64,000 nt of DNA from the NCBI GenBank assembly GCA_031763025.1, contig JASSKH010000029.1, positions 1,984,001-2,048,000 on the forward strand, given 5' to 3'. Both the position numbers and the translations under genes were made by a program. The notes below the pieces were generated by a model. The model searched no databases. It saw nothing but the letters and a program-made list of their open reading frames with translations, and had not been told where the DNA came from. Below, piece after piece: positions 627-56,567 of the stretch; within the stretch, counting starts at the first letter, position 1; every line of letters starts with the position of its first letter. This DNA is from Macrocystis pyrifera. Lineage: Eukaryota; Sar; Phaeophyceae; Laminariales; Laminariaceae.

Positions 627-667
<41 letters not shown>

Positions 668-16356: not shown

Positions 16357-19300
16357 ACCATCGATTTGGCAGGAAATACGGCCACACGACACACAAGAAA
16401 AAAGCAAAAAAACAAAAACACAACAGGGAATGTACCACAGCATTGGCCGTCTCAATCAGAAAGACGGGCAGTGCCGCGCTTCGGCGAGTTCCTTCGCTTC
16501 ATTATCCGGCCCAGCTGTTGTTGCCACGCCTCCTTAAACGCGGCTCCTCTTCCTTGCCCCCCCTGGGCCTTGGGCCCAACGGCGTCCTACAGTAAGTTGC
16601 TGCGCATTTTGTACCTCGAGCGCTTTTTTGTTACGATCATCACAGCAGGTTTCCCCCTAGTAGTTGCCTAACGAAAAAAACGTGGTCAAATAGACATGGA
16701 GCGCAACTATTTTGGGAAGCGCCGCGGTTAGGACGCCACGTCGGTCGAGCACATCTTTTAAACATCCCCCGACAAATCATCTACCAGGTACAGATAGATC
16801 ATGATCTAGGTCATCTACGGCAGTTCCTCAGCTATGCCGTTGTGAGACGCGGTGCAGGATCCGTACGGTATAGATCATACCCAGGAAACATGTGCTACTG
16901 GAGGCCATGCAGAGTAGCACACAGCTCCCACCCGGCACCATGAGCTACTGTAGACCATACAGATCATACAGATCATCTGCTTGTGAAAGAGTTAGATCAT
17001 GAAGTGGGAATGATCTGTATATGACCTGTAGATAATCCGTTCGAGGTGCGTTTCTTTCTTTGGTCCCAAAAGCGCAACTCCTGCCGTACCGCGGCTCATA
17101 CACACACGCGCTTGCCTCTAGCGTGGCCTCGTCCCGGTTTTCCACGACCATGGCGGGAAGGCCCAAAGCGGTCCTGGCCTTCGTCGCCAGAGGCTCCAGC
17201 GTCTGCAGCAGGTTGAACGTTCGAGATCTGGACGCGGGCAGCGACGGCGGCGGCGGGAGCGTAGCGTGTTCACTAGACGACTTGGAATGCCTGAAGGTTG
17301 TCCCTCCCGTCTGCTCTATTTGCTGGTACTACTGTCTCCAGCTAGTCGGATCGAGGGCGGCTGTGACACCAGGGAGCGGGAAGCAACGGCGGCGGAAACG
17401 GAACGGGTTCCCCGCACGACTCGGACTGGCTTAGGTTTGGTTGTTGTCCATCCCACATGCACTACTTTCTCCGGCTCCCTCCCCGTCGTAACTCAAGACG
17501 GCTGTAGTCACCAATATGCGGTAGCACAGAAGGGGTTTCAGTGAAGTTGGCACAGCCTATGGAGAGCGGCTGTACCCTCTGCATGCGGCTACATGCTCGA
17601 CATGCCCGGTTTTGTACTTAAGGGCTGCTTGCCATCGGTGGGGATATTCTTCGTCGAAGAGGCGCGAGGGGCTGCCAGCGAGGGGCCGCCCACACCGTGC
17701 TCCACGGAAGGGAATGCATCAAACAGGTGAAAGGGGTCTCCAACAGCTCGCGTTATCGCGCGGTTTATAGGGGGGGCGTACTCATTTGTTGCTTACCTTA
17801 GCCATTTGACCATTGACCACGCATCCCTTTCGAGAGGGAGCACCGCTCCTACTCCTAATGGAGACACCTCCAACAATTGGGCGCTCATTACGTTGCTTCC
17901 ATATACTACACATAAACTTTTTGCTAATCTCATGGAACGGTGCCCGTCAGATAGACACGAGAGCGGTCACCGACAGCACGCTACGTCGAAGCGAATATAG
18001 GGGCGAGGGGTCACAAACGGCGCAGTGCACGGAAATCTGTGTATCAAAGAGGTGAGAAGAGTTTCCAACCAACAGCTCGCTTTGTCGAAAGGTGTACGTC
18101 AAAGAGGGGCGAGGGGTTTTCAACAGCTCGCTTCAGCAAAAGCTGTGCATCAAAGAGGCGCAAGCGTGTCACCAACCCCTCGCTTCATCGAAGGAAGTTC
18201 CCGCAAGGAGGGGTCGGGGGGGAGGTGTCATGCCATGCACGGCCGTAGTCGAATAACCATAGACTCTCGCACCCCTACAATGCCGGGACGGAGCACGTTG
18301 GATTTGCCCGCCACGCAGACATCGCCTGCACCAAGCGCGACCCGCCGTGAAGTGTTGGGCGAATCTCATGAAGGGTGAGCCGCAACCTACTAAGAACCGC
18401 TTTTGAGGCGGACTACGCACAAGGATGACAGCTTCGAATGAATTGGGGGGGGGGGGGGCGCCGCCAACATCCCGTTCCGCCGACGGGTCCACGTCGACCG
18501 CTTGCAGTTGGCAGGAAGCACGATCGACGCCCTACCGCATCCGACATTTTGCGGTAGCTCCTCACCTATCCCTGGTCAAAATCACCACCGACGTCCTCTC
18601 CTCCGGCGCCTCGCCGGGCTTCGAGGCGACACGCTCAATCGCGGTGACATCCCGCCGCCGACATCGTCTCGAACATAAGCAAAAACATCGCTCCCTCCCG
18701 CCGCCGCTATTGCAACCACTGACCCGGCCGGTGCCGCCGCCGCCGCCGCCGCCCCACCCATACTCGCGCCGGGACCGGGATAAGCAGCATTGAAGTGCAT
18801 CTCCAGCTTCTGGAGGCGAAAGCCGATGGTGGTCCTCTCGAAGCAAGTCAGCGGCAACACCAAGAGGACCATCGGTCGCGGCGCCTGATGAAGTGGTTGC
18901 AGGGGGGGCACATCATAGAGGAGGGGATCCCGCCACACGCGGCGTAGGTGTATTTGTCAGGGCTGTAGGTTGGGTGGAATTCAGGGCTTTACGGCAGTAG
19001 TCGATTTACTTGGGGGGTGTAGAAGAAATTACGCAATTAATCTTTATTAAAAAAATATATATGCAGCGGTGCCAAATACCATATATCCCATTTTTGGGGT
19101 TTCCACACATGTAGGAAGGCTAACGCTTGTGTATGATAAGACCAATCACGTCTTGGCCTTCGCAAAAATAACGAAATTCAGAAGTCGAATGTTTGGCACC
19201 GCTGCAACTAACCATATTAAACAAAAAAAACAATGAACAGTCCGTAGGTTACAGTGAGCCAACTCACCAACCTCGCGAGGTGTTTTGGGAAATAAAAAAA

Positions 19301-19783
19301 AACGAGGAGGGGGGGGGGGGGGGGGGGGGTTTTGTACTCGATAGGAGAGATGTACTCGATCTCATGCATGGCCGTAGTCGTATGACCATAGACCCTCGCA
19401 TCCCTACAATGCCGGGACGGAGCATGTCGGGTTTTCATCGACCAGGCAGACATTGCTTGCACCAAGCGCGAAGCGCCGTGAGGTGTCCGGCGAGTCGCAT
19501 GAAGGGTGAGCTGCATCCTACTAAGAACCGCTTGTGAGGCGGACTTGTATATGGATGACAGCTTCAATGAGTTAGTTTAATTTCCGGTGTGGCCAGGGGG
19601 GGGGTGTACTCACTATCATGCATGGCCATAGTCGTATGACCATAGACCCTCGCATCCCTACAATGCCGCGACGGAGCACATCGGGTCTTCACCGACCAGG
19701 CAGACATTGGGAATTGTACCAAGCGCGAAGCGTCGTAGGGGTGTTCGGCGAGGCGCAAGACGGGTAAGCTGCATCCTGGGGGG

Positions 19784-19817
<34 letters not shown>

Positions 19818-22154
19818 GTCTCGGGGACGGGAGGTGGGCGCTGATCGCTGCTTGCTTGAAGCGGCATCACGGCCAGCAGTCGGCAACAGAAGCACCGACA
19901 AAACAAACGCCATCACTCAACCCTAACAACCCCATAGGAGAGGGACCCCATAGGAGAGGGGGTTGGCGTGTTCTTCTTGCTAGACCCAAACAACTGCAAA
20001 TGCGAAAACGTTGGCGTGTCTTTGGTGATGGAAATAAAGCTGACACCCACACACGTCCAAATCCGACACTGGAGATCAAAGTTTAGGGAGGCGGGGGGGG
20101 GGGGGGGGGGGGGGTCTACTCATACCATGCATGGCCGTGATCGTATGACCATAAGACCCTCGCATCCCTACAATGCCGGGACGCGGGACGGAGCACGTCG
20201 GATTTTCATCGATCAGGCAGAGATTGTATCACGCACGAAACGCCGTAAGGTGTCGGGCGAGTCGCATGAGTGAGCTGCATCCTGCTACGAATCGCTTGTA
20301 GGGGGGCTGGGGGGTGGGGTACTCAAGGTATGCTGAAAAGTAGTTCGATCTAACCACCCAGGATCCGCGCTGTGTCTCCCCGAACGCCTCGCGGTAGCAA
20401 GCACACAGACACAAGACAAAGCAGCGCTATGGCATCGACGGGTTGCCGCTCCTGCGAACGGGAGATACGACAACCGACAACACAACGACGAAAACACTCC
20501 TAAGCTCCGTCACAAGTGCCGTGGCAGACACCGCAAGACTCAACAACGATACCAGCGTGAGAATCACTACGGCACGGAGAGGGGCTTGCAGCTCCTGCGA
20601 AGGGAGGGAACAAAACGACAATGCAACAACAACAACAACAGCAACAACAACAACAACAAAAATAACAACAACAAAAAACAACAAAAACAACAAAAACAAC
20701 AACTAAAACAACAACAACAACAACAACAACAACAAAAACAAAAACAAAAACAAAAAATGTGTGTGCCATGCGCCAGACACCGCAGCAGTCGACAACAGCT
20801 GAATAAATGGGTATCACTGGGGCAGCAATCAGGCATACGCCTCGTAAGGCATGCCTTATCGCTCAACCGAGGAACTGCCCATCAAGACACATGCCTAAAA
20901 AAGGCATGCCTTATCGCCATAATCACCCAGCAATGCACGCCATCGTCACCCCAACACGGCATGGCACTATCACCCATGTTAGGCATGCCTACGCCTCATC
21001 ACCCATATAATGCATGCCTTTTATCACCAAACAAGGCATGCATCTTCAACCAACGAGGCAGACATGCACTATCACCCATCAAGACATGCCGCAAGCCTCA
21101 CCAACCAGTGACGCATGCCTTACCCCCACACAAGGCATGCCTCATTATCGCTGGAATACCACTCATTCGTGTTTTCGATACACCTGCAGCAGGCCATGGG
21201 GATTCGATTCGAATGTCCATCGGGCAACCGCACTCTCCTTTTCGAGTCAAGAGTCATTTTTTCTTTTGGGGGGGGGGGGGGGTGAGGTACACATATATAA
21301 CACACAGCTCCCTCCTCTAGCGATGACGAGCGTCGGAAAAATGAATAACAGCGTACACTTCCCTATCGTAGTAGCATGCATCTGGCGCATGCCACGAAGG
21401 GCGTGCGCCTTACGCGTTCTCGAGCACTTCGCATACAGATCGCTGAATCTCACCCAAGATTTTTTTTTTGCCTTGTTTTTTCGGCAGACGCGTAGTTAAC
21501 CCGATGAACTACAGCAGGGGCACCACGAACACCGATCACGGAGGCCCAAAACAAGCCCAGACCGCCCCCACTTTGGTGAGTTGTATCTCAAGAACCACGG
21601 CGTGAATCGAAAACGCTGTCTGTTCTCAAACGCACGCGGTTGATGATAGGCTGGCTTTCCACCGGTGTTACATGTTGTGTTTTTCATAAATACATTGAGA
21701 AGCCTTCCCTGCCCCCGTTTTGGGCCTCTATGTATCACGTGCCACCGTGACAGTGTAGAACACCAAAGGCATTCCATTAATAGCAGATACTCGGTTAAGG
21801 AGACACGGTCAAGAAATATATACACATATATATATATGGGCCAAAACTTCGCCACCTCTCTCTTATGGTAGCAGCACGCATCATTCTTGCCTCGGAGAAG
21901 AGCGCGTCCTTCCTCGCGAAGGCTCCGTCGACGAGGAAAACAGATGTTTCGGTGGCCACGACCACGCACGCCACCTCCCCCTGCGCAACGGGACACAACA
22001 ACAAACAACAGTAACAACCCGCGGGGTTTCCATGCAAGGTGGTGGCGAACGAGAAGAGGGGACGGGGAGACATCACCAAAAAATGTCGAGTGCAGGTATA
22101 GGCTCACGTGCGGGTAGGCAGGAGGGACAGGATGAAAGGTCCGAGCCATACCAT

Positions 22155-22198
<44 letters not shown>

Positions 22199-25100
22199 AG
22201 GTATCAGCCCGGAAGGATTGAGCGACCAGGTCCCGGACAGGCTCGGACGGGGCGGGGGGTAGAGGATGAACAAACAGCGAGAGGCAGCGTCGAACCGTTA
22301 GGTTGCTGTCGGTTGCCTTCTCAACAGCGGGCGCGGCGCCGACAGCGCGCGACGCACGCGGCAGTTCGAGCGCCGGAGAAACAGCATCATGCTCGTTCGG
22401 TCCAGCGCCAACTGCTGCCAAGCGGAAGGTCAGCCGCCGCGCAGCACGACTATAGCGCCGCGAACCTTGCTACAGTAGGAGGGAGAGGAGCTTGACCGCG
22501 GCGTGGACCGTTGCCGCCAACCAACCGCGAGCCGCACACGAGCTAAGGCGCAGACGATCTCCCGCGGGCCCCAAAACCTACAGTACCCGTAAATCTCCCA
22601 CCGTGCCAGCACTCCAGCCCGAGATCCCGATGCCCGGCGGCTATTACTTGCCGCTGACAACGCTACCACCGTCCCGACAATTCGTGGTCGAGGCACAGAA
22701 AACACCGTCGCACCATGGTCATGCCCTTCGCCTCCCCCTCCAGGCCTCTCCGGCGCACGATCTGCAACAGCCCGGCCGCTTGCAACTCCTCCACCGAGCG
22801 CGCGCCCCACCCGCCTAGGTCGGTGCTAGGTCCGGAAAAGCTCGCGGTGCGGGCCCTTGACACCGAGCTGGAAGGAGTACCGCCTCTGCTACCGCCCCCG
22901 AAACTCCCGCTACCGCCTCCGCTACCCCCTCCGCTGCTGGCTCTGCTGCTGCTGCCGGCGAATTTTCCATCGACGCCGCCTCCGCCGCCGCTGCCGCTGC
23001 GTGCGGAAGGCGTTTCGGAAGCTCGGAAGTCTCGGGGGTAGACGGGCCGGCAGGGCAGAACCGTTTCTCGAAACACGGCAACGACGTTGACGTGGCGTCG
23101 CTTGGCTGCCTCTCGATGGGCGCGCATCGCCGCCGGGAGATATTCGTCGTTGTAGGAGAGATACGGCACGCCGCTGAACACCTGCAAATACACACAGGGG
23201 GGCACGCGAAAACGGGGGGCGGGACGGGGTGGCGGGACGGGGCGGGGGGGGGGGGGGGGGGGTACTCGATTTCATGCATGGCCGTAGTCGTATGACCATG
23301 GACCCTCTCATCCCTACAATGCCGGGACGGAGCACGTCAGGTCTTCACCGACCAGGTAGACATCGCTAGCACCAGGGGGGGGGGAGGGGAATGAGATGGT
23401 TGATCTGTTGTGCCCTATAAAAGGCCATCGGAAGGCTTTCACCTAAAGTTTTCCCGGAGCCGCAGTAGTGTTTGCGACTTGGCCCAGCTGCTTCAAAACA
23501 ACGGTTGGTAGTCCACACAACACCTCCATCCCCTCTTCATTCCGACTAAATCCCAGACGTGTATATCAAGCCCGGTTCAGAACAAAATGGTTGAAATTCT
23601 CTCGAGCGACATTGAAGCGAAAACGCCTCTTTATAACCGAAAAAAAAACACAATGTGTGGATTCGCAACGGCCGTGCCTTAGACACCTGGTGTCTGTTAA
23701 CGTAACCGCAACAAGATTTATCGGGATGTTGAACTCTAGGGCTTGTTGGGCCACCTTCGAGGCCTGACGTTTTGCCGACGGGCTTCCGCTACCTGCACAC
23801 GGTAATTCGCGTCTCAACAGAATATTTCTCTTTCTCACCAAAGAACATCGACGCCGCAAGGTCATACGAGTCCCACCCCAGCGGCTCCCATGACACGCAG
23901 GAGAGGCTGTGCCGCACGCAACAACAAAAACAACAAAACGCACCTGCTGGCGGAAGTAAAGTTCGAGATGCTCCGCGATCAGCAGGCCAGCGTAGGCCGT
24001 ATCGCCCCGATAGCCGTCTGCGCCTTCTTCTTCTACCAAGGCAGCGGCAGCAGCAGCAGCAGCAGCTACCATCTCGCCGTCCACCGCCTTGCCCTCCTTC
24101 CCTCCGCCCCGGCAGCCACTATCGAGGAAGTTTGTGTCGAGGTGGAAGACAAGGCTTTGCCCCTGCTTGGCTTACTGCGCCCCCTTACCCTCGCCGCCCA
24201 CCGCCTCCACCACCGTTGCCGCCGCCGCCACCGCCACGGTCACTCCTCTCTCCTCTTCCCCGCCAAAGGGGCCCTTCGCGGGCAAGCAGCGCCCCGCCTC
24301 TGTTCCCGTCATCCACTCTTCGGGCAGCGCCGCCTGCGCTGTCGCAGTCAAGAATTCCCCTTCCCCTTCGCCACGGCCAGCGGACGAATCGCCATCGCGC
24401 CCGCTGACACCCCTCGTGGCGGCAGCGTCGAAACCCTTTCCTTCAACGTCTGGCGGGGTACGGGGGGGCACGGCGTCATCCTCGAGGAAATCGCCCTCGA
24501 GGACATCTTTAGGATTTCCGCCGTATTTTCGCTCAGAGGATGCTGCCGCCGCCGCCACCGCCGGAGACGCCGCATGAGGAGTCCCCGACACTTTACCCCT
24601 TGACGCGATTTTTCCCCAGCCGGGCGATTCCACTTCAGCATCAGAACCTAAACGTGCCCCCGATCCCAACCCCATCTCGGTCGGCCTCGCTATGCACTCT
24701 TGTTCCTCGTCGTTCGGCGCCGCCGGCGATGCTCCTCCCTGATCTCTGCCGAGACCTCCCGGGGGCACCACCGCCGCTGCGACTCCGGTGCGCCCGGCGC
24801 TGGCGCCGCCGGCGACTTCGCCGGCAGCCGCGTCGCCACCCACGGCGGCAGCAATCTCGCCCGCCGGTTCCGAACCCGCCACGGAGCGACCGGGGTCACC
24901 GGAACAGACGGAGGGCTTGAAAGGCGACGATGGCGAAATACACCGTGTCCTCGCCGATGGACTATGCTCTGCCTTGCCCCCATCGCCAGTGGCGGTGTCC
25001 GGGAGCGTCGCGGGGGGGCGGGTCTCGCCGAAAGCCGACGGCTCGCCGTGCGGCGTCTTCCTTGGCCGCGACGCCTCGTTGCAACTCCAACCTCGCCGTT

Positions 25101-28145: not shown

Positions 28146-28181
<36 letters not shown>

Positions 28182-29707
28182 ACCTGATGTCATGAATGAC
28201 CGTAGTCGTATGACCGTAGACCCTCGTATCCCTACAATGCCGGGACGGAGCACGTCGGGTTTTCACCGACCAGGCAGACAATGCTTGCACCAAGCGCGAA
28301 GCGGCGTGAGGTGTTCGGCGAGTTGCATGAGGAGCGGGGCGGGGGGGTGGTGTCAGATTGAAGCGCTTCAGGTTCCCGTGGACGAGCGCTGGTCGCATCG
28401 AGGGCGGTGGCAGAGAGCTACTATTGCCGGGTGGCATAGTAAATAGGACCTACGGTACACACAAAAAAAAACTATACATTTACATTTTTTTAGTAACAAT
28501 ATTTGGTCTTATATTTTCTATGGCCCCCCGTAAGAGAGGGGCGAGCCACGTGCGCTCAATACACAGCTGTTAAGTAAATCAACCATACGTCACGGGGGGA
28601 CATAGGTTAGAAGGATCGAATACGCTTCATAAACATGCATAGGTGGGTCCATCGCTGGTCTTGAGTACCATGCCCGCCCCGTAACACAATGTTTTCCTGT
28701 GAGAGTAGACGGTTCGGCGTACATCAACAGGACCAGGCAAAAAAAATCCGCGTTAACACTGTCAATTGTCCGGACGGGCCCATCAGCGGTTGCGGCGGGA
28801 TTGGGCGGTGACTGCCGCCAGCCACGATTTCCGTTCGTACATGCCGCCACGCGTCACAGCAGGGCGGGACGGATACGAAACTGCTCCTAACCTGTTTCCC
28901 ACTGCAATTCCTTTCCAACTAGACTTCTGAGTAATGTTTCCCCTCTACCCTCTCACACTTCCCCCCTCATGTTACCTCCCCCCCCCCACCCCAGGCGAAC
29001 ACCTCGCGGCGCTTCGAGCTTTTGATGCACGCAACGCCTGCCCGGTCGGTGAAAACCCGGCTTTCTCCGTCCCGGCATCACAGTAACGCGAGGAGGATTT
29101 ATGGCCATACGACTACGGCTATAAATGACACTAGTACACCCCGCCGCACCCCGCTTCTCCCTTGCGCCACTCACTCCGCCTCCAGAGGGTTTCCTTCGAG
29201 CGTCACGCGGCGCAGCAGCGGCAGCGTCGACAAGCGGGAGGCCTCCTCCAGCCCGCGTACTCGGTTGCGGGAGAGGTCGACCTCTTCAAGGGAAAACACG
29301 CGCTCCAGGCCCCTGGTGCTTCTGATGCGGTTTCCCTCGAGGCGCAGGGAGCGGAGTTTCCCAGAACGGTATGGATGTTAGCCACCGACCTGCGTCTCGA
29401 TGGGGGGACGGCAAGAGGGGAAGGGGTGCTCGTGTCATGCGTGGCCGTAGTCGTAGGACCATAGATCCTCGCATCCTTACAACGCCAGGACGGACCAAAG
29501 TTGGGTTTTCACCGACCAGGCCGACACTGCCTGCACCAAGCGCGAAGCGCCGCGAGGTGTTGGGCAAGTCGCATGGAGGGTCAGCTGCATCCTACTAAGA
29601 ACCGCTTGTGAGGCAGACTTGCAATGGATGACAGCTTTGAATGAACAAGTATATATACAGGGGGGAAGGAGGCAATTATATGGTCAGTTGGGGGGTGGGG
29701 GGGGGGT

Positions 29708-29738
<31 letters not shown>

Positions 29739-33745: not shown

Positions 33746-35293
33746 GCAGACGGTGGCACGGCAAGGGCGGTCATGGAGGTAGGGGGCCTTGCGCGACCCC
33801 TCGCGGACGGTGCCGAGGGCGTGTCCGCCTGCCTGAATGTAAAACCCCTTTTTACCACTGGAAATAACCATCCCGTACTATATAACTCAACGTACTTGGT
33901 CTCCAAAAAACGTGGGGGGATCTCTGAATGGTTGAGCCAGACACAAAAAGCAGGCGAGAACAAGAAATACCATTATCATACCGTACCATACCATACCATA
34001 TCATACTATATCATACCATACCATACCAAATCGTACCATACCATACCATACCATACCGTACCATACCATACCATACCATACCGTACCATACCATACCAGA
34101 CCATACCATAGCATAGCATAGCATACCATTACATACAATACCATACCATACCATATCAAACCGTACCATACCATACAATACTATACCATATCATACCATA
34201 TCGTACCATACAATACCATACCGTACTATAACATACCATACCGTACCATACCATACCATACTATAACATACCGTACCATACCATACCATACCATAATATA
34301 CCGTACGATACCGTACCATACCATACAATACCATATCATACCACCCTCATACCATACCGCACCGTATCGTACCAAACCGTACCATACCATATCATTCCGT
34401 GTCATACCATACCATATCATACAATGCCATACCATACGGCACCAAACCATACCATACCATACAATTCAAGCACCGCGACATTTATCCTTGTCAGTAAATT
34501 CATGGGCAGCCACAGTCGGGGCATAAGGGAGGGGCACAAGCACAAAGCTCGTGCAACGTCTCCCTTGTAAGCCCTCAGATCGTCGTCGAGGTCAGTGACG
34601 AAGCCAGTCCCCGTGCAGGATCCCAACTGCCATATAAACATTGCCCATCATGTTGCACAATACACTACCCCCCCCCCCCCCCCCTTTTGGGTTGGTGTCG
34701 GTTGGCAAAGACACTGTAAAACATGCCGCTCACTACGTGAGCTAGACATCCAGGGTACCTTTTTTTTTTTTTTTTTTTTTGGCGATCGCCCACAGCTGGT
34801 CGTCTAGTTAGATCATTTGTGCGAGGTAAAGAACCTTTACTCTGCACAAGGGAATTGATCGTATCACGTAGTGTTCAAGGTAAGACACCCAGGAGGCAGT
34901 TACATAGTACTCCCATTGCTGTCTCTGGAAGTGGCTACACCGGAAATTAAACTAACTCATTGAAGCTGTCATCCATATGCAAGTCCGCCTCACAAGCGGT
35001 TCTTAGTAGGATGCAGCTCACCCTTCATGTGACTCGCCGGAAACCTCACGGCGCTTCGCGCTTGGTGCAAGCAATGTCTGCCTGGTCGGTGAAAACCCGA
35101 CATGCTCCGTCCCGGCATTGTAGGGATGCGAGGGTCTATGGTCATACGACTACGGCCATGCATGAGATCGAGTACATCTCTCCTATCGAGTACCCCCCCC
35201 CCCCCCCCCCCCCGCGCCCTCTAACTGCTCCGTCTCCAAACGGATGTGTGGTCAATTTTCAAACGACTAAGGCAGACAAAAAAAAATGAGCAC

Positions 35294-35325
<32 letters not shown>

Positions 35326-37240
35326 TTCCAGCGCAAAAACCTCAACCAGTCCAGTCAACCTTCCGTACACCCAGCCTCCCTACGAGACGGAAAATTAACC
35401 TGTCTGGACAACCCTCCGCGCCCCCGTCTCCACTCCAACTCCACCCCCCTCCTCCTTTCTAACGAAGCACTGGATCGACACGCCCAGTAATCCTGCACGC
35501 TCCGCAATTCCTGCAGCACTGACCTCTGCACCCGTAGAGTCGTGACGCCCCTCGACAGGCGGAACAACCGCCACGCCATGGCGGCGTCGACCCCCACTGC
35601 CGAACGCATCCGGCTGTCGACAGCCCGATCGAAGCTACTGCCGGACCTGCCCTCGTACCCCGGGCGCCTGCTCCCGCCGTTGCGACTATAGCTCCTGCCA
35701 CCGTCACGGCCGCCGCCACCGCCACCGCCAAGACCAACACAACTACCAGCAACACCACCACCACCACCACCACCACCACCACCACCAACCCCACCCCAAC
35801 CACCACCACCAATACCGACACCACCACCGACACCGCCACCACCCCACCCACCCTTTCCGCTCCGCGGGCGTCACCTGCGCGACGAGCCAGTGGAAGAAAA
35901 CCGCCTCCTTGGAGGGCGCGCCGTAACGCCTCCACGGCCGCGAGGTCTAGCATTACCACCCCATCCGGACGCCCACTCCCACCACCATCACCACCACCCC
36001 CGCTAAAGCTGTCGCTACCACCTACGCCAGCACCGCCGATACTGCTATCATCGCTGGCATCGGGTGTCATAGGCAGCGGGTCCAACGCGCTGGCGAGGGT
36101 CTAGAAAAGGTGGATGGGTGCGAGTGAAGCGGCGGCGGCGGGAAAGAGGCGTTCATGAAGGCTGTTTCAAGGGTTGACTGAAGAAATTATGAACAGAACG
36201 AGTCGCCACTGGTTATGGTCCGGCGGCGGCGAATTGATGGTTGGACGACGGGAATGACTGATATGGTCGGCGGAATCGTCGATCGGTCGGCGGAGCCGCC
36301 GCTTGGTCGGGATTATCGAGTGTTTGATTGGTCTCCCGGACCGCTGATCACTCATTGGGCAGTGGAATCGCCGACTGGTTGGCGAAATCGCTGTCCAATT
36401 TTCGCTGGCACGCTTGGCGTCGAACCCCAAGAAACTACTGTACCGACACCATCACTAACACCAACACCAATAACACAACAACATCAACGACGTCGAAGAC
36501 CAGCACCACCGCCACCACCAAGACCAAGAACAAAATCTCCTCACCTCAAGCGTAGATGCTGTAAGGGTTGACCGAAGAACTCAGAAAGAGTCGCCACTAA
36601 TTTGGTCCGGCGGCGAATTTCTAGCTATTCAAAATTGCCGATCCGTCGCCGGAATTGTTGACTGGCAGGCAGAGACGCTGATTGGTCGGGACAAATCCAA
36701 CTAATGACTGGTCGGCGGAACCGCTGATTCTTCATCGGTCAGTGGAATCGCTGATTGGTTGTGGCGGAAATCGCTGTTCGTTTCCCCCGCTGGCCCATTC
36801 GGCTTCAATCTCAACAAGAAGAAAAAAAAACTACCGCCATCACCAACACCACCAACACCACCACCAACAACAACATTTGACACCACCACCACCATCGCAA
36901 TACAAACAAAAACAGCCCTCACCTCAAGCGTAGCACGCGCCCACCCCCCATCCCCTTCGCCCCCGCCCCCTCCTCTCGTCTCCATGCCCGCCGCCGACCC
37001 CGCCCCCGATGCGGCTCTCGGTAGGCTGAAAAACTTCGAAACCCGAGCCGACAGCGGTTCCGCCGCCTCCGTACGCGTGACAGAACCGAGAGGATTTCGA
37101 TTCTCCCTCTCCACCGTGCGGCGAGATTGTTTCCCAAGAGGCATTTTCCCACCAGGCGTTTTCGTCGGGGGGTCGGGGAGCGCTGGAGACCAGGTCCAAT
37201 TGTCTTCGCCGACGTCGAAGACACTCGGATCGTCGCCCAC
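9792..37240 (-). CDS. STK11IP: STK11IP/LIP1-like leucine-rich repeat and PH-like protein
   Basis: Minus-strand gene of about 27 kb. Recognised exons in transcript order: ~37240-36923, 36100-35875, ~35700-35482, ~33665-33568, 32003-31595, 31163-31017, 29389-29175, 28108-27868, 27600-27417, ~27340-26726, 26232-26056, 25176-24189, ~24160-23944, 23181-22670, 18884-18566, 17290-~17105, 14014-13219, 10875-10467, 10057-9792. The order of conserved blocks follows animal STK11IP: an N-terminal helix, LRRs (RRLSLAHNRL, ELDLSFNHLE, SLRLEGNRI, VTLEGNPL), a short LDGR block, disordered middle, the HLELYFRQQVFSG block, a PH-like strand set (TIGFRLQKLEMHF) and C-terminal LAIMDEDHSRLP and VDLADIIAVR. In animals the protein binds the kinase STK11/LKB1 and sits on endolysosomes; its job here is not known. 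Most exact exons agree in phase. The N-terminus, exons 3-4, 10, 13 and 15-16 are approximate; two exons have one-base homopolymer frame breaks and an in-frame TAA lies near 24172. Confidence 0.78.
10183..10440 (+). repeat. Family D element, best-preserved ends
   Basis: Left end TCGGACAGATAGATCAG and right end TGATGATCTGCCCGA form imperfect inverted repeats. Inside are GAGGCTGTGCAGGATCCG, CATGCGCTACAGTAGATC and CCCACCCGGCAAC. It occupies most of the last intron of the STK11IP-like gene. Confidence 0.88.
10467..10875 (-). CDS. STK11IP: STK11IP-like exon 18
   Basis: The acceptor cacgaacag starts LAIMDEDHSRLP, directly continuing PRTLVATKEQ as in the family's STLFLLDED. It then has a disordered loop, VEMVCVDAVDLADIIAVR and PEQVTVFS. 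The donor gtgact is in phase 1. A family D repeat begins 27 bases into the last intron. Confidence 0.82.
11381..11408 (+). repeat. G28 tract flanked by an inverted repeat
   Basis: TCCCATTGG lies just left and CAATGGGA just right of the tract, so the ends can pair across it. No family P copy is inserted here. Confidence 0.9.
11635..11733 (+). repeat. Family M MITE, diverged
   Basis: GGGGGCTATTTATCAGGACC on the left, TAGGTTTTTGTGTATG in the core, and CTATCGTCCCCCGTAATAG on the right. Confidence 0.75.
12298..12328 (+). repeat. G31 tract
   Basis: Unbroken G run without a family P copy, in an intron of the STK11IP-like gene. Confidence 0.95.
12423..12457 (+). repeat. GT dinucleotide microsatellite followed by a T run
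   Basis: About 17 GT units, then T13. Confidence 0.95.
13034..13115 (+). repeat. Repeat shared with 8466-8545
   Basis: AAAGGTCTGGTCGAGAGAGAG, CTTCCGAAAACATAATG, TAAAGCACCCTTAGCG. In an intron of the STK11IP-like gene. Confidence 0.8.
13219..14014 (-). CDS. STK11IP: STK11IP-like exon 17
   Basis: The acceptor cgcacag starts AIANALPGIPSS, continuing to NPTKGGLFGLFGKWADD and a disordered stretch. The frame switches at an A6 run (plus-strand T run 13566-13571) and ends LLMQRWELRPWVVGP, RTLVATKEQ with donor gtgcag. Minus one base it is 265 codons in phase 0 at both ends. It corresponds to the YLRAFLVEGPSTC segment of the family. Confidence 0.7.
15133..15239 (+). repeat. Family M MITE
   Basis: ACGGGGGTCCATAGTTAACG on the left, CTATGGACCCCCGTAATAG on the right, terminal inverted repeats of about 25 bases. 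Confidence 0.92.
15760..16300. repeat. A-rich intron stretch
   Basis: Several A runs of 10-19 with AGAGAAA and ACAAA between them. No coding or structural signal. Confidence 0.7.
16302..16355 (+). repeat. G54 tract
   Basis: Unbroken G run followed by TACCATCG; no family P match beyond the first bases TACC. Confidence 0.95.
16763..17048 (+). repeat. Family D element
   Basis: GACAAATCATCTACCAGG to ATAATCCGTTCGAGGTGCG, with CAGATCATACAGATC repeats and CCCACCCGGCACC inside. It abuts STK11IP-like exon 16. Confidence 0.87.
17105..17290 (-). CDS. STK11IP: STK11IP-like exon 16
   Basis: The acceptor aaccttcag plus one base completes the arginine split at TRD(R). Reads HSKSSSEHATLPPP, then the amphipathic helix NLLQTLEPLATKARTA, then ENRDEATLEAS. 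The donor is not fixed; a family D element begins a few tens of bases further on. Confidence 0.5.
17640..18200 (+). repeat. Degenerate tandem repeat of about 55-60 bases
   Basis: GTGCATCAAAGAGG or a variant, GGGGTTTCCAACAGCTCGC and TCGTCGAAAG recur four to five times; the best units are at 18015-18190. A family P copy follows. Confidence 0.78.
18224..18445 (+). repeat. Family P copy, about 220 bp
   Basis: Runs from TGTCATGCCATGCACGGCC to GACAGCTTCGAATGAATT and ends in G12. The left end follows GGGGGGAGG. In an intron of the STK11IP-like gene. Confidence 0.9.
18566..18884 (-). CDS. STK11IP: STK11IP-like exon 15 (PH-like strands)
   Basis: The acceptor cttcatcag starts PRPMVLLVLPLTCFER, TTIGFRLQKLEMHF; the end reads TSVVILTRDR with donor gtgagg. 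It matches the LSGIELGLAGQSLRLEW and RCVLLPRDARH strands of animal STK11IP. The two parts are in different frames across a CGG repeat near 18730-18755, so a small intron or a base error lies between. Confidence 0.6.
19330..19595 (+). repeat. Family P copy, subfamily with doubled TACTCGAT
   Basis: Begins after a G tract with GTACTCGATAGGAGAGATG, repeats GTACTCGAT and continues to TTTCCGGTGTGGCCA, followed by G9. The doubled start is shared with the full copy at 34685-35192. Confidence 0.92.
19605..19777 (+). repeat. Family P copy directly behind the previous one
   Basis: Starts TGTACTCACTATCATGCATG right after the G9 that ends the previous copy. It stops at GCTGCATCCT, then a G tract of about 38 broken by one A. 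Confidence 0.9.
20115..20300 (+). repeat. Family P copy
   Basis: Preceded by a G tract of about 22. Runs from TCTACTCATACCATGCATGG to AATCGCTTGTA and is followed by GGGGGGCTGGGGGGTGGGG and then TACTC, possibly the start of another tiny fragment. Confidence 0.9.
20615..20758 (+). repeat. CAA microsatellite
   Basis: Long run of CAA/AAC units with AAACAA variants, in an intron of the STK11IP-like gene. Confidence 0.95.
20825..21155 (+). repeat. Spaced GGCATGCC repeats
   Basis: The palindrome GGCATGCC or a one-base variant (GGCATGCAT, GACATGCC) recurs about ten times, roughly every 25-40 bases, with TTATC/CATCACC-like linkers. Confidence 0.8.
22155..22197 (+). repeat. G43 tract
   Basis: Unbroken G run without a family P copy, in an intron of the STK11IP-like gene. 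Confidence 0.95.
22670..23181 (-). CDS. STK11IP: STK11IP-like exon 14 (start of PH-like module)
   Basis: The acceptor atttgcag starts VFSGVPYLSYNDEYLP and HVNVVAVFRETVLPC, then a G/S-rich loop, then GMTMVRRCFLCLDHEL, which matches EFMCLVVVSDRRLYLL in the family. The donor gtggta is weak, so the 3' end may be off by some bases. Confidence 0.7.
23263..23374 (+). repeat. Family P copy, short
   Basis: G tract, then TACTCGATTTCATGCATGG; ends at GCTAGCACCA, followed by G10. Confidence 0.92.
23944..24160 (-). CDS. STK11IP: STK11IP-like exon 13 (HLELYF block)
   Basis: Reads LVFHLDTNFLDSG, a poly-alanine stretch from a GCT repeat, YRGDTAYAGLL and AEHLELYFRQQ, then donor gtgcgt. It aligns with VDHRLRLFLDVEVFS of animal STK11IP once joined to the next exon. 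The acceptor was not fixed: only about 25 bases separate it from the previous possible donor. Confidence 0.6.
24189..25176 (-). CDS. STK11IP: STK11IP-like exon 12 (long disordered exon)
   Basis: The acceptor gaccaacag starts LRHSPDVVRDAKEISS and about 330 residues of Gly/Ala/Glu-rich disordered protein stay open. A good donor, gtaagg, follows 24189, and an in-frame TAA lies 15 bases past it at 24174-24172. The same frame then stays open into the next block. Confidence 0.6.
25630..25890 (+). repeat. Family D element, diverged
   Basis: CCAGACGATTATCTATC, GAGGCTGTGCAGGGTATG, CCCACCCGACAACATGAGC. In the intron between exons 11 and 12 of the STK11IP-like gene. Confidence 0.78.
26056..26232 (-). 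CDS. STK11IP: STK11IP-like exon 11 (serine/acid-rich)
   Basis: Acceptor cgcggcag, donor gtgaga, exactly 59 codons, phase 0 at both ends. Reads VDRLTKDTPTPQ then a serine/aspartate-rich tail SSSSSDTQSDGEWDRL. No domain is seen; a disordered linker with many phosphorylatable serines. Confidence 0.65.
26470..26665 (+). repeat. CAG/CAA/ACC microsatellite block
   Basis: Successive AGCAACAACAGCGAC, CAACAACAAC and CCACCACC runs in an intron of the STK11IP-like gene. Confidence 0.9.
26726..27340 (-). CDS. STK11IP: STK11IP-like exon 10 (disordered, start uncertain)
   Basis: The 3' half reads GARTVVIEDAPPSM, which recalls the family's basic VRVRRASISEP motif, and ends at LPAEGKMDYK with a possible donor gtcggg in phase 0. 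The 5' part contains a tandem repeat encoding Arg-Thr-Gly-Asp-like units. Two frames are open there, so the start is a guess. Confidence 0.45.
27417..27600 (-). CDS. STK11IP: STK11IP-like exon 9 (disordered)
   Basis: The acceptor ttccctcag lies just behind a 38-base C tract on the coding strand. Phase 0 gives ASPTPSFNRLSSPASWEK, then a basic, proline-rich stretch. The donor gtgaac gives phase 1. Low-complexity sequence makes frame choice depend on phase alone. Confidence 0.55.
27614..27651 (+). repeat. G38 tract (C on the coding strand) at a 3' splice site
   Basis: On the minus strand the C tract lies directly upstream of the acceptor ttccctcag of STK11IP-like exon 9. Confidence 0.95.
27868..28108 (-). 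CDS. STK11IP: STK11IP-like exon 8 (post-LRR block)
   Basis: The acceptor atcgaccag plus one base completes the codon split at NPLEAE. Reads ERKKYRVSVLSLLYQ, a G-rich linker, VELDGRLPSRKELGQ and LRFADVVE, matching the family's FLLDGKVLSLTDF segment. The donor is gtgaac, phase 0. Confidence 0.85.
28181..28334 (+). repeat. Family P copy
   Basis: Follows a G tract of about 30. Starts TACCTGATGTCATGAATGAC and ends near GTTGCATGAGGA, followed by GCGGGGCGGGGGGG. In an intron of the STK11IP-like gene. Confidence 0.9.
28430..28537 (+). repeat. Family M MITE
   Basis: GGTGGCATAGTAAATAGGACC on the left is slightly worn; the right end reads CTATGGCCCCCCGTAAGAG. It sits just past a family P copy in an intron of the STK11IP-like gene. 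Confidence 0.85.
28993..29138 (-). repeat. Family P copy, reversed
   Basis: A C-rich tract, then AGGCGAACACCTCGCGGCG through GGTCGGTGAAAACC to CTAGTACACCCC. More diverged than most copies. Confidence 0.85.
29175..29389 (-). CDS. STK11IP: STK11IP-like exon 7 (LRRs)
   Basis: The acceptor gacgcag starts SVANIHTVL in one frame and continues LRSLRLEGNRI, SLEEVDLSRNRVRGLEEA, LLRRVTLEGNPLEAE in another; the switch falls at a GGG run (plus-strand 29360-29362). With one more G the exon is 216 bases and both outer phases match its neighbours. The donor is gtgagt. Confidence 0.88.
29427..29648 (+). repeat. Family P copy
   Basis: Runs from TGCTCGTGTCATGCGTGGCC to ATGACAGCTTTGAATGA, with GGGGAAGGGG on the left and GGGGGG about 15 bases past the right end. 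Confidence 0.9.
29655..29890 (+). repeat. G-rich degenerate minisatellite
   Basis: Units with GAGGGAGAGGTGGGG and TACTAGTTA/TACTGATGGTCAG between long G runs; many G4-capable stretches. Confidence 0.75.
31017..31163 (-). CDS. STK11IP: STK11IP-like exon 6 (LRRs)
   Basis: The acceptor cgtctctag is followed by CGLRELDPSLRLLPRV, RRLSLAHNRLSSVDFF and CASLEELDLSFNHLE. The donor is gtgagt, phase 2. It matches the DSSLRLLSALRFLNLSHN block of the animal protein very well. These are the clearest LRRs in the gene. Confidence 0.92.
31595..32003 (-). CDS. STK11IP: STK11IP-like exon 5 (LRR with long insert)
   Basis: The acceptor is cgactaag. Reads IFALRLQLKSLRFVGAPL, SLVALLAPP, then a disordered G/A/R-rich insert of about 70 residues, then GLQLRLG and PELHWSLLKTLR. 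The donor is gtgcgt, phase 2. The first part aligns with GIYSQLETLICSRSL of animal STK11IP. Confidence 0.78.
32340..32512 (+). repeat. Family D element, partial
   Basis: The right two thirds only: CTCCCACCCGGCGATACG, GAGCTACTGTAGATCACAC, AAGGATCTAGATCATGAAG, ending GTGCGAGGTGC. Confidence 0.78.
32861..32941 (+). repeat. Family H hairpin element
   Basis: CCACTCTGGGCGCAAATATA ... TTATGTTTCCGTCCAGAGGGG: a roughly 80-base element whose halves are inverted copies, with TGGTC/GGTCC near the centre. Confidence 0.75.
33158..33240 (+). repeat. Family H hairpin element
   Basis: TACTCTGTGGGCGTGAAGATAA ... TTGTATTTCCACCCAGAGTGG, 220 bases from the previous copy. Confidence 0.72.
33568..33665 (-). CDS. 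STK11IP: STK11IP-like exon 4 (first LRR)
   Basis: Reads VELQAFPALQDLRL then DGIPLEYLQ, matching the family's FPFKSLRHLELRGVPL block. The donor gtgtga gives phase 1, which completes a glycine codon with the next exon. The acceptor gtcacag near 33666 is the best candidate. Confidence 0.7.
33965..34465 (+). repeat. CCATA pentanucleotide satellite, about 500 bp
   Basis: Almost only CCATA units with CCGTA, TCATA and CAATA variants, in the intron before STK11IP-like exon 4. Smaller relatives lie at 7380-7550 and 44990-45110. Confidence 0.95.
34668..35213 (-). repeat. Family P full-length copy with C tracts at both ends
   Basis: Core 34685-35192, with C17 on the left and C21 on the right. Contains all blocks: doubled TACTCGAT end, GGCCGTAGTCGTATGACC, the CTTGTGAGGCGGAC block, CCGGTGTAGCCAC, an internal A tract (T22 on the plus strand) and the far end CCAACCGACACCAACCC. 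About 500 bp without the tracts. No coding capacity. Confidence 0.93.
35295..35323 (+). repeat. C29 tract
   Basis: Unbroken C run, 80 bases from the C tract that ends a full family P copy. Confidence 0.95.
35482..35700 (-). CDS. STK11IP: STK11IP-like exon 3 (approximate)
   Basis: The frame reads AMAWRLFRLSRGVTTL, then RVQRSVLQELRSVQDYW, with LRR-like spacing of leucines. The proposed donor is gtgtcg at 35481. The start is unresolved, and its phase does not fit exon 2 cleanly. Confidence 0.45.
35700..36060. repeat. ACC/CCG trinucleotide-rich stretch
   Basis: ACC repeats near 35750-35840 fill the intron between exons 2 and 3 of the STK11IP-like gene; the 35875-36060 part lies within exon 2 and encodes a G/S-rich tract. 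Confidence 0.75.
35875..36100 (-). CDS. STK11IP: STK11IP-like exon 2
   Basis: The acceptor ttttctag is followed in phase 0 by TLASALDPLP, an acidic/G/S-rich stretch and then VVMLDLAAVEALRRAL, which resembles the helix before the first LRR in animal STK11IP. The donor is gtgacg, phase 1. Confidence 0.6.
36168..36950 (-). repeat. Tandem duplication of exon 1 end plus intron, STK11IP-like gene
   Basis: Two direct copies of about 385 bases (roughly 36560-36950 and 36168-36560). Each begins, in transcript sense, with the exon end and donor CTACGCTTGAGGTGAGG, runs through a TGG-rich repeat and ends in a block containing GTGGCGACTC. The upstream copy contains the real exon end at 36923. Confidence 0.85.
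36923..37240 (-). CDS. STK11IP: STK11IP-like exon 1 of those seen (N-terminal, disordered)
   Basis: Open frame reading GDDPSVFDVGEDNWTW through a charged and G-rich stretch to WARATLE, then donor gtgagg in phase 0. The first in-frame ATG is at 37144 (reads MPLGKQSRR); otherwise the exon starts at an acceptor near 37250. No upstream exon was recognised. Confidence 0.55.
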
Positions 37241-37616
37241 GCCAAGCCCGCTGTTTTTTCAACGTTGGTCGTTGAAAGGACAGGGTAGGGGTGGGGGTGG
37301 GATGGGAGAGGCCGTCACACGAGAAAAACGCTGTCGGAAGCGCACATGGGACGGCAGGGAGTGGGCGACACTTGTTTCATCCTACTTTCCTCGATTATTC
37401 ATTGTATTTCCCTTTCGCTCGTCCCTGCCACTTCCACCCCCCCCTCACTCTCTCCCTTCCTTCCCCCCGCCCCCCTCCCCGGCCCGCCTCCCTCCCTGCA
37501 CAGCTCCCGCCCCCCTTCCCTTGGACAGCAGGCACGATCAGCAAGGCCCACGGAACGGTTTCTTGCACGACGGCGCAAAGCTGAGGTTGTATTGCGCGAG
37601 GAAGTATATCAAGAGA

Positions 37617-38130
37617 GGGGGGGGTGTACTCGATATCATGCATGGCCGTAGTCATATGACCATAGACACTCGCATACTACAATATCGGGACGGAGCACGT
37701 CGAGCTTTCACCGACCAGGCAGATATTGCTTGCTGCAAGCGCGAAGCGCCGTGAGGTGTTTGGCGAGTCGCATGAAGGGTGAGCTGCACCCTACTGAGAA
37801 TCGCTTATGAGGCGGATTCGCACATGAACGACAGCTTCAAGGAATTGGTTATTTTCCGGCGTGGGCACTTCGAGGGACAGCAATGGGGTTACTATGTAAC
37901 AGCCTCGTAGGTGTTTTGCCATATAGATAACTTGACGCGATCATTCTCCTTGTATGGAGTAAAGTTTCTTCACCCCGCACAGATGATCTATAACTCGATT
38001 GCCAGTTGTAACCGACCACCAAAAAAAAAAAAAAAATGGTCCCCTGGTTGTCTACCTCACGTAGGTTTGTTGCACAGTGTCGTTGCCAACCGACGCCAAC
38101 CCAACATATATATAATATATAGGGGGGGGG
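37617..38130 (+). repeat. Family P full-length copy with G tracts at both ends
   Basis: G8, then TGTACTCGATATCATGCATG and all internal blocks, including the internal A16 tract near 38022-38037 and the far end CCAACCGACGCCAACCC, a short AT stretch and G9. Homologous along its whole length to the copy at 34668. Confidence 0.93.
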
Positions 38131-38222
38131 TGCTTGGCCTTTGCTTCCCCAATGACCACCATAGGGCGCGCCGATTGTACATATCAAGTGGCTTACGTTA
38201 TCGGCGATGCTGAACTACATAT

Positions 38223-48731: not shown

Positions 48732-51700
48732 CTGGTCCAGTAACAACGACAGTGCTAATAATTGAAACAACTGTTGAGTAGGGCAGGGCACTCGGCTTCT
48801 ACCTTAGGTATTGGCATGAATAGAAACAACAACCGTAACAGCCACTGAGACAACTCCGGTGAAAAAAGTAGGGCTTTCGGGTTACCTCGTAGGTATTTTG
48901 TAGTGCAAATAGGAGAACTACAACAATACGGTGCAGGACAAGACGCGCCCGTGGCGGCAGTACCAACCATTGAGTCTACTGTACCTACGACAAAATACAA
49001 ACCACTTGATACCTTGTGGCTACGCGCCAGTGGAGGTCACAGCAACCATTTGCTTAACAAAAAAAAGTCGCCGCACAGCGAAAGGCGCGCCCTTGATGTG
49101 CGAATAGGAACACAATGGAAGTAGGTAACCGAGCGGCGGAGCGTAAGACGGCGCCGCAGGGCAAGGCGTGCTTGCGGCAATCGTGGGAAGGCATTCGTCA
49201 GCGGTGGACACCCTGGCGAAGTAGAAACCCTAACCGCAACCCTGATTTCGGCCAATATCAACACGCAAACGCTACGCGAGCAACAACATTGCGCGTTCGA
49301 AGCGAAACCAAAATCGAACTCTGACCTAGACTACCGATATACCCACAATCACACCCTAGCTCTAACCCTTCCTTTAGCCTCAACCCTTAACGCTATCCCT
49401 ATCCCCACGCCTACAGCTGTCATAATCCGTACCCTTCGCTTTCTTCCTTTAACCCTAACGCGCCCCTGTACATCAAGGGCGCCGTTGAGCACGAGGCCCT
49501 CAATGGTATCGTAGCCCTTCCCCGTGACCCTTTCCCGCACCCTATCCCCCACCCCCACCCGCAACCTCAAAGGTATCCGCGCAGATATTATCTCAAGGGC
49601 GCGGTCGAGAACGAGGCTCTCGACGATGGTAATGGTGCGCTTCCCGCCGTGATGCCTACTCCCACCTGTCTACCCCACCTTCAACCCTATCCCAACCCCT
49701 GCCACCATCCCTAACACTACCAACGCAGCTGTATCTCAAGAGCACCGTCGAGCACGAGGCCCTCGATGTTAGCCACCAGCCTTCCTTGTGGCCCCTTTCC
49801 CTACTCCCGCCCCAACCCCCACCCCTATCTCCGCCCCTTCTACCCCCCCACCCCCTCCTTCCCCTCCCCCTAGCCCGCTACGTTTTAATCCTACCCTCGT
49901 CTCCATCCCTCCCCCATGTGCAAGCAAATCTGCTTCACAAGGAGTTCTTGGTAGGAAGCAGCTCACCCTTCATACGATTCGCCCAACACCTCACGGTGCT
50001 TCGCGCTTGGTGCAAGCAATGTCTGCCTGGTCGGTGAAAACCCGACATGCTCCGTCCCGGTATTCTAAGGATGCGAGGATCTATGGTCGTACGACTACGG
50101 CCATGCATGAAAACGAGTACCCCCCCCCCCCCCTCCCCCTACCACTCCAAGCCCAATCCTAATCCCAACCCTACCTGTATCTCAAGGGCGCCGTCAAGCA
50201 CGAGGCCCTCGATGGTAACGTCCCCCTTCCCCGTGATGACGAGGGTGGAGCGGGCGGTAACCGAAAACCGCCGATGGGGTAGGAAAACGCCTCCGGAGCT
50301 CCGAGTAGAAAACCGCGAAGGAGGGGCCGAGGACCACCTGCGGCCCGAGAGATGCGCTCACACCGGCCCACTCCTTTTGTATTTCATAGGGGATGGTGGC
50401 GGCGGTGGGGGGAGGTGTTGGTGGCGACGATGATGGAGGCGGTGTAGGAGAGGGAGGGGGGGGGGGGGGGGGGGGGGGTTAGGAGAGAAGACAAAGGAGA
50501 ATTGAAAAATCAACAAGCGTAGAAAAAAAAGAACCGAAATGACTAAAACGCGTTGTTGTCATTGTTGTGTTCGTCCTTCCTGTTTTCGTTGCTTTTGCTG
50601 TATGCACGGCAGGGCGCACGAGAAAAAAAAAAACACAGACACAAACAGACGAAGCGGAAACGGCAAACGGACCCCAAAACCGAAAACGTCAACGAAAACA
50701 ACACCGGCAAACGAAACGTCAAACCAAAACCGAAACCGGCAACAAAATCCAAAACCGAAAACGGCGACAAAATCCAAAACCGAAAACGAAACCTGAACCG
50801 AAACCGAAAATGGCGACGAAAGCGACAACGAATGCGACAACGAAAGAGCAAACGAAAACGGAAACGGCAGCAAAAACAAGCACCAACACTCACCTGCTCC
50901 CCGCCTTCCTCAACCTTGCACCCGGCCTTCCGCATCATCTCCGCCCACACCCGGTACTGGTCGGCTTCCGCCGAAACCGCCGCCGCCGGGGGAGTTCCAC
51001 TCGCCTTTTTCCAGAGGCGGGAAGGGGAAGGGGGTGAGGACGCGGATGAGAGGGCTTCGCAGATATGCTACACGAACTAAAGCTGATGAGAGCAAACGCG
51101 CCGAAACCTTGCCCCTTGTCACACAACGTAGGGTCACTTTTAGCAAAGGGGAGGGGGGGGGGGTTACTCATGTCGTGCATAGCCGTAGTCGTAGGACCAT
51201 AGAACCTCGCATCGTGTGGTCGCTTTTAGTAGAGGGGGGGGGTCCACTCGTGTCATGGGGAGAGCTTTGTCGTACCAAACGTGGCAAGATGAGCGCCGTC
51301 CTACGCGCCTATGCAGATACTCCTCGACAGGTCACAAAACCTCACAACGAAAGCTGTAAAAATAGTAGCAAGACCGCAAGGCCCCTGTTCGAGAGATATG
51401 CCCCACTAGTTCATGCGGCAGATAATTCATCATTGCTTCTCTTTACACTTGAAGGGCACGCATGGCGGTAGTCATATGACCATAGACCCTCGCATCCCTA
51501 CAATGCTGGGGCGGAGCATGTCGGGTTTTCACCCACCGGTCAGAGGGGAGGGTGGGGGGGGAAAGAGGGGGGAAAGCACGCGAACGTGCATGGTAGATGT
51601 GCTGCTCGTACACTACTGTTGAGGTCAAAAAGTGTTCAAAACATGCAAGAGTGCGTCCCATACCGGTACCATTCATCACCAAGTTTTCGTGAGAATCAGT

Positions 51701-56477: not shown

Positions 56478-56567
<90 letters not shown>

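Follow-up and report, generated by a model that had tools for sequence, protein, structure and literature searches.

Between positions 34668 and 38130 of the window (the whole 64-kb stretch of DNA that was analysed, with a GC fraction of 0.536) lie two full-length copies of a non-coding mobile element, at 34668-35213 on the minus strand and 37617-38130 on the plus strand, together with a single truncated member of a related family (35214-35323, minus strand) and other sequence between them. The element is ∼500-550 bp long, and with two long copies as blastn queries, 18 copies of it were found in the window. They are listed below, oriented with the constant end, TACTCGAT.., on the left.

627..715, minus strand: truncated copy of ∼31 bp; G8 left, G41 right
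4193..4256, minus strand: truncated 47-bp copy; G15 left, G9 right
18216..18458, plus strand: truncated copy; G7 left, G14 right
19309..19604, plus strand: truncated copy with 97% identity to the 34668 copy across 286 bp; G21 on the left, and a right G9 shared as left tract by the next copy (19596..19816)
19596..19816, plus strand: truncated copy, second of this head-to-tail pair; right end G8-A-G30
20093..20319, plus strand: truncated copy; G22 left, right G-rich tract leading into GGGGTACTC (possibly a further minimal copy)
23244..23384, plus strand: truncated copy; G19 left, G10 right
28147..28347, plus strand: truncated copy; G34 on the left, and on the right a G-rich tract with interruptions that includes G7
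28978..29145, minus strand: diverged truncated copy; short G runs left, G10 right
29417..29650, plus strand: truncated copy; G-rich flanks, with G10 and G30 tracts further right
34668..35213, minus strand: full-length copy with a 508-bp body; C17 and C21 tracts at the two ends on the plus strand
37617..38130, plus strand: full-length copy; G8 and G9 tracts at the two ends, the right one preceded by a TA-rich stretch
49914..50133, minus strand: truncated copy; G14 left, GGGGGAGGG right
51153..51242, plus strand: truncated 48-bp copy; G11 left, and a 25-bp flank present on both sides with 5 differences
51457..51561, plus strand: copy without the constant end; G8 tract right
56478..56610, plus strand: truncated 40-bp copy behind G55-T-G32
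60600..60855, plus strand: diverged truncated copy, an exception with only short G runs alongside
61717..61840, plus strand: truncated copy; G9 left, G13 right

The core of the element, GGCCGTAGTCGTATGACC, was present at 15 places in the window with up to three mismatches, compared with 0.06 expected by chance. The blastn count of 18 copies confirms the ∼18 copies with a common core given in a preliminary description of this DNA. One end of the 18 copies is constant, and the other is cut at many points. The element is short, with a model of ∼500-525 bp, and lacks coding capacity, the longest open stretch in the two full-length window copies being 90 codons. Its far end, ..CCAACCGACGCCAACCCAA or a close variant, is common to 10 of the 11 copies whose model end is at least 480, and in most of the copies reaching this position a TA-rich stretch precedes the following G-rich tract. 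In one subfamily, 18 bp of the constant end are duplicated (TACTCGATAGGAGAGATG TACTCGATC..), an arrangement found in the window at 19335-19352 and 35175-35192, and frequent among the young copies sampled. Classification as a DNA transposon or MITE was considered and rejected, since the outermost 40 bases at each end of the 34668 copy show no inverted repeat, and one end varies.

The window also contains a MITE-like family with inverted ends GGGGACCATAGTAAATAGGACC..GGTCCTATTTACTATGGTCCCC, seen in many of the sampled loci as well:

5232-5332, 15129-15240, 28419-28536, 38220-38326, 53049-53161, 54822-54933, 57391-57503 and 59466-59565: MITE-like family

A long (CCATA)n-like pentanucleotide array with many variants occupies positions 34001-34460. 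On the minus strand of 28900-31200, motifs resembling those of LRR exons were recognized by eye (..LPLLRRVTLEGNPLEAE, ..VRRLSLAHNRLSSVDFF), with copies of the element in the apparent introns.

Copy ends were scored for a G run of at least 6 on the same strand within 20 bp. Such a run was found at the constant end in 15 of the 18 window copies, at the variable end in 14, and at both ends in 12, while random placement of intervals (2000 trials) gave means of 0.38, 0.38 and 0.0135, respectively, with a maximum of 1 for both ends. Control repeat families of the window had such runs at 1 of 24 ends (the MITE-like family) and 0 of 22 ends (two others), for a total of 1 in 46. The exceptions among the element copies were c60600, with a run on neither side, c28987 and c51457, which lacked a left run, and c49924, c51153 and c56478, which had no right run of at least 6 within 20 bp. 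These counts agree with the preliminary description, in which the constant end abutted a G tract in nearly all copies and the other end usually met a tract on the same strand. The tract lengths given there, 6 to 88 G, need amending at the upper limit, where the largest tract in the window is 55 plus 32 G split by a single T, and not 88 pure G. When all G or C runs of at least 10 in the window were considered, 20 of 46 lay within 25 bp of a copy and 26 did not, although one of these 26 (56478-56532) is parted by only a single T from an occupied run; G runs therefore also exist without recognizable copies.

The window is part of contig C210 of the genome searched, which comprised 537,376,219 bases in 223 contigs. 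A brown-algal origin is suspected, in view of GC and intron values given in PMC6418280. At up to two mismatches, the core matched 33,248 times (16,779 + 16,469), compared with 4 + 2 matches for a reversed-pattern control, and a 35-base pattern from the constant end had 4,237 exact matches, with none for its control. Flanks were examined in a 288-kb sample made up of the window, eight core-centred loci (L004-L011), and 200 kb chosen regardless of copies (L012-L031, half of these loci lying beside the window). A profile search detected 44 copies in this sample, with G runs of at least 6 on the left in 32, on the right in 32, and C runs of this length in none. A second set of loci, L032-L091, comprised the 60 first-listed exact matches to the 35-mer, from contigs C125 and C126; because they were chosen as exact matches, these are young copies and not a random sample. 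They contributed 85 new copies, and after 11 at locus edges were left out, the 74 with both flanks had a G run on the left in 61 and on the right in 50, and a C run on the left in 2 and on the right in 0. The two copies with a left C run of at least 6 lack the constant end in the model, and they are among the 20 that were omitted, for short flanks or a missing constant end, from the 129 copies, so that 109 were analysed.

Tabulation of tracts, strand and truncation points, which had been proposed as a check, was carried out on these 109 copies. A G run was present on the left (constant end) in 94 and on the right (variable end) in 75, with 68 copies having both and 8 neither, and there were no C runs; 15 copies had no left run of at least 6, and 34 no right run. 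The orientation of the copies is set by the G strand, and insertion into one kind of simple repeat is a trait of microsatellite-specific non-LTR retrotransposons. Model position 505 or beyond was reached by 39 copies, while the other 70 were cut at 59 different points, consistent with the many internal cut-off points reported earlier. The frequency of runs at both ends, in the window and in this larger set, supports the original proposal of a retroposon targeting G·C tracts. Head-to-tail arrays were common, since neighbours within 60 bp of each other formed 25 same-strand pairs and 1 opposite pair, and in the latter each copy faces its own G strand. The gap between same-strand neighbours had a G fraction of 0.36-0.93, and at L022 three copies stand in a row. 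At L060 (283-740), a truncated element of ∼142 bp occurs as three tandem copies, all cut at almost the same point, which probably arose by later tandem amplification.

Target-site duplications, a trait of target-primed retroposons, were sought in the same 109 copies by requiring that the left repeat end 0-4 nt before the element and that the right repeat start near the cut end, with no demand for G. A copy's own two flanks scored at least 9 in 17 of 109 cases, compared with 5 of 872 mismatched pairs. Three of the 17 were set aside (two copies of the L060 tandem array and one all-G pair, L045), leaving 14 copies with a duplication of 10-26 bp, each ending in at least 3 G before the element, as in GTGCGCGGGGTGGGGG (L077), GGGGGGAGTTGAGGGGGG (L084), ATCGGCTGGGGGGGGG (L075), CTCGGTCGGGGGGGG (L058) and ATCAAGGGGG (L039); an all-G duplication is not recognizable in this way, and 14 of 109 counts only the recognized ones. 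The G run of the duplication lies at the constant-end junction, the opposite border is of mixed sequence, and in 10 of 14 cases the spacer between run and element is TG directly. As judged from the right-hand repeat, the G run at the site before insertion ranged from 4 (L076) and 5 (L039) to at least 35 (L011). None of the 14 duplications is in the window, where both window-only duplication tests gave p 0.30, and only the 51153 copy, with its imperfect 25-bp repeat, stood out. The duplications are largely G, as had been suggested, but those recognized also include mixed bases upstream of the run. Because the first nick and the primer in target-primed reverse transcription lie at the 3′ end of the RNA, and the G run of the duplication sits at the constant end, we place the RNA 3′ end there, which supports the earlier view that the variable end arises by 5′ truncation.

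The form of the duplications bears on the idea that the copies are repair patches at breaks in quadruplex-forming G runs, or products of recombination between G runs, with no dedicated target-specific enzyme. Long G runs are known to be prone to breaks, more than half of the runs of at least 10 in the window (26 of 46) have no copy nearby, and the threefold 142-bp array in L060 looks like tandem amplification, all of which would fit this explanation. We nevertheless consider it unlikely, since in every copy with a recognized duplication the constant end adjoins the end of the duplication's G run and the duplicated stretch measures 10-26 bp, which is what primed reverse transcription should produce, and since the three other repeat families of the window so rarely have runs at their ends. 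Sequencing or assembly errors in homopolymers could explain why tract lengths differ between near-identical duplicates, but artefacts would not associate with one strand, with one end of the element, and with duplicated mixed bases, and we regard this source of the runs as wholly implausible.

A different explanation is that the runs are made by the element itself, a long C tail on the RNA being copied into the left tract while G-rich flanks lengthen by slippage, with a target that is only weakly G-rich. The window copies taken alone favour this explanation, in that runs at the constant end are shorter in more diverged copies (rho -0.73, p 0.0006), a trend absent at the variable end (rho 0.06); the left/right difference was significant in four of five subsets, with p 0.054 in the smallest. 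In contrast, no such asymmetry was present in the 109 copies, where similarity to the model gave rho 0.11 (p 0.28) for left runs and rho 0.33 (p 0.0004) for right runs, and for this reason a decaying C tail, inferred from the window only, was dropped as a main claim. Other observations on the side of a tail are the 13 extra G on the left at L070, and the right tracts of 16 and 12 in the near-identical duplicates L006 and L007. However, in 10 of the 14 duplications TG and then the element follow straight after the G run with no extra G, and several right duplication copies hold more G than the left.

The state of the site before insertion is relevant to the same question. The copies at L006 and L007 lie in near-identical flanks (∼99%), and these flanks, as well as L022 around 871, resemble a repeat that, as judged from a translated motif, may be DIRS-like. 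The L022 paralog is ∼67% identical to the L006/L007 flanks and is empty (CCGTCGCATAGTGGGGCGAGGAAAAGACGG), whereas the occupied site reads CCGTCGCAT-G14-TG-element-..ATTGGGC-G16 or G12-AGTGAAG... It was the only empty site found in a search that covered 44 copies. Instead of a long G tract, it has only the short G-rich motif GTGGGGCGAGG, and its G4, compared with G14 directly after GCAT in the occupied site, is again what a copied tail would leave. The target may therefore be a short G-rich motif, with runs that may lengthen later, and the L022 site weakens the strict claim that long tracts existed beforehand; it may reflect either a short target followed by growth of the run, or, at ∼67% identity, a direct ancestor with a longer run. 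Empty sites without a G tract had been named as evidence against targeting, and this one diverged paralogous site goes part of the way in that direction. Taking these observations into account, a tail-made origin of the runs is possible but doubtful, and in the best reading the G runs belong mostly to the target, with no need for a long C tail. The preliminary description had left the choice between targeting of G tracts and a C tail, and while targeting is upheld, a long tail is not required where TG and the element directly follow the run.

A second, protein-coding family has ∼70 bp of the constant end in common with the element, as determined by alignment. Its copies in the window are:

14967..15067, minus strand: second family, truncated copy between G10 and G22
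17770..17933, plus strand: second family (LINE-like), 3′ end behind G7
35214..35323, minus strand: second family, truncated copy in a head-to-tail array, with G29 on one side and the full-length copy's G21 on the other

A 25-mer of this family matched the genome 10,170 times at up to two mismatches (control 0), and a G run of at least 6 was present at the common end in 14 of 18 sampled copies, the 18 being 22 matches minus four repeats of the same place. Its open frames are on the strand ending in C and read towards the constant end, with a TGA stop codon ∼5 nt before the C run. A frame of 129 aa was found again, with 92-100% identity, at the 150 best-scoring places out of 16,311 first-look candidates. 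Among these 150 the open frames measure 131-633 aa, with one internal stop in 8; the 633-codon frame is that at C207:7793173-7793562. In L092 plus L033 the last 129 codons form part of a 224-codon frame, and upstream in this copy a 212-codon stretch in another frame begins in and beyond the C62 tract at which the copy is cut. Differences between copies numbered 75, 58 and 93 by codon position, a weak third-position excess. A long open frame ending near the 3′ end, combined with many 5′-truncated copies, is a trait of non-LTR retrotransposons, and a CPCG..H..C motif with an upstream PKLEYAGEVWEGN..LETVQ stretch resembles the part of a LINE protein that follows the reverse transcriptase domain. 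This likeness was not supported by searches covering the 3′ part of a few copies, which gave no Pfam match and only a chance match in PDB; BLASTP against the post-YADD region of another LINE was negative.

An RVT_1 match at L093 was considered as the reverse transcriptase of this partner and rejected, because it is part of another LINE family, whose reverse transcriptase has a YADD motif and which was also found at L023 (8860-9691) and L028 (1-642). In this search 150 of 7470 candidates in the genome were scored, and L093, the best of the 150 listed, was the sole one examined. The 150 listed matches have near-equal scores (123.5-127.2 bits), and several have open frames of more than 1,000 codons. 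Given the second family as a putative LINE partner, the 3′ end common to both families is as expected of a SINE.

The origin of the element's RNA was examined by homology searches. The window had no Rfam match at the gathering score, positions 34600-38200 at E<=5 gave three sub-threshold miRNA matches outside the element, and ARAGORN found no tRNA. Box scans of the two full-length window copies placed A and B boxes at chance level, so that in these searches no Pol III head derived from tRNA, 5S or 7SL RNA was found. The term SINE-like used in the preliminary description is thus apt for a short, non-coding element whose 3′ end is common with a partner, while the name SINE itself is unproved by the search for a Pol III head. 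The strand with the C tail folded more stably than the other strand in 12 of 14 copies, but RNAalifold detected no strong common structure on either strand, and we therefore claim no stem-loop. Outside this genome, IMG/VR had 3 matches to an 18-mer, in unrelated sequence, and none to a 24-mer, and GTDB genomes had no match to another 24-mer. Within the window, Pfam revealed nothing convincing in 20 of the 490 ORFs of at least 70 aa. An A-like word, TGGCCGTAGTCG, and a B-like word, GGTTTTCACC, do lie ∼60 nt apart near the constant end, which raised the opposite polarity, in which a Pol III transcript would begin at the constant end and the copies would be truncated at the 3′ side. However, box A words at up to two mismatches were no commoner than in shuffled sequence, the B-like word was not within two mismatches of the box, Rfam and ARAGORN gave no match, and the frame of the coding family with the same end runs in the direction of that end and terminates shortly ahead of it, making this polarity very improbable.

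Taken together, these results make it quite probable that a LINE-like element and its SINE-like parasite insert by target-primed reverse transcription, with the 3′ end of the RNA set against a G run. The short non-coding retroposon would depend for its movement on the machinery of a LINE-like element in this genome, the second family being the putative supplier of the enzymes. The 5′ end of its RNA would correspond to the variable end and the 3′ end (..ATCGAGTACA then C) to the constant end. An endonuclease would nick the G-rich strand within a G run or where the run ends, allowing the nicked strand to pair with C at the RNA 3′ end and prime reverse transcription. Early stops would give 5′ truncation, and a cut of the second strand ∼10-26 bases upstream would give the duplication. 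The G run left beside a copy could then receive the next one, building head-to-tail arrays with G-rich gaps. The junctions at G runs, the truncation of the other end, the duplications, the orientation by G strand and the end common with a coding family were observed; we infer nicking of the G strand, priming by G·C pairing and supply of an enzyme by the second family. We also lean, with little more than even confidence, towards a stronger version, in which a LINE and its short parasite are specific for mononucleotide G runs, a short 3′ C stretch picks the site by pairing with the nicked G strand, and each insertion leaves G runs on which later copies can land, the pair thereby creating its own niche, and head-to-tail arrays, genome-wide.

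If this model is correct, homopolymer G would be the simplest possible target site, and targeting of G runs would account in part for how many long G runs this genome has and for the strand on which they lie. The system would also offer a natural test of whether the choice of target can be governed by RNA-DNA pairing at the primer, and the runs next to copies are a natural record of G-run instability. A G run seems to be an uncommon target for mobile elements of this kind, and searches of the open-licence PMC literature listed no retroposon specific for G or C runs. Known targets of site-specific retroposons include structural RNA genes, spliced-leader exons, transposons, telomeres and microsatellites (see also PMC4640811).

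The nearest description, compared as a description only and from the sections of the paper available, is that of RTEX-N1_Ec32 from the brown alga Ectocarpus, a non-autonomous element of ∼600 bp with >6000 copies, whose 3′ end is common with autonomous RTE-X LINEs and whose 5′ origin is unknown (PMC12477816). It was classed with LINEs by its authors, because some systems demand a Pol III promoter for SINEs (PMC12477816). Size, abundance, the LINE-common 3′ end and the unknown 5′ origin are similar in the two elements, but in those sections neither a G or C tract nor a preferred target is described for RTEX-N1_Ec32 (PMC12477816). In Lepidoptera, according to the accessible part of that report, RTE elements seed microsatellites at their 3′ ends, and their 5′-truncated copies, like those described here, adjoin simple repeats at the 3′ end; there, however, the element brings the repeat with it, so that it is found between the duplications, whereas the present G run is mostly inside the duplication (PMC2887409). 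Pairs of SINEs and LINEs with tails other than A, such as p-SINE and Au with T tails, resemble the present pair in that a short element carries the 3′ end of a LINE, although no tRNA, 5S or 7SL head was found here, and no C tail is included among the tails in the portion consulted (PMC3747384). Non-LTR retrotransposons specific for microsatellites, described in the excerpt available, include Togen, which inserts into (TG)n, and some HERO families, and these are also LINEs that insert into simple repeats (PMC4640811). The Togen target is a dinucleotide, in contrast to a run of one base that may be as short as 4-6 G, and the present system, unlike Togen as presented there, has a SINE-like partner (PMC4640811). 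Since microsatellite-specific LINEs are already known, what we call new here is a LINE-like and SINE-like pair that has the G run as its simple-repeat target.
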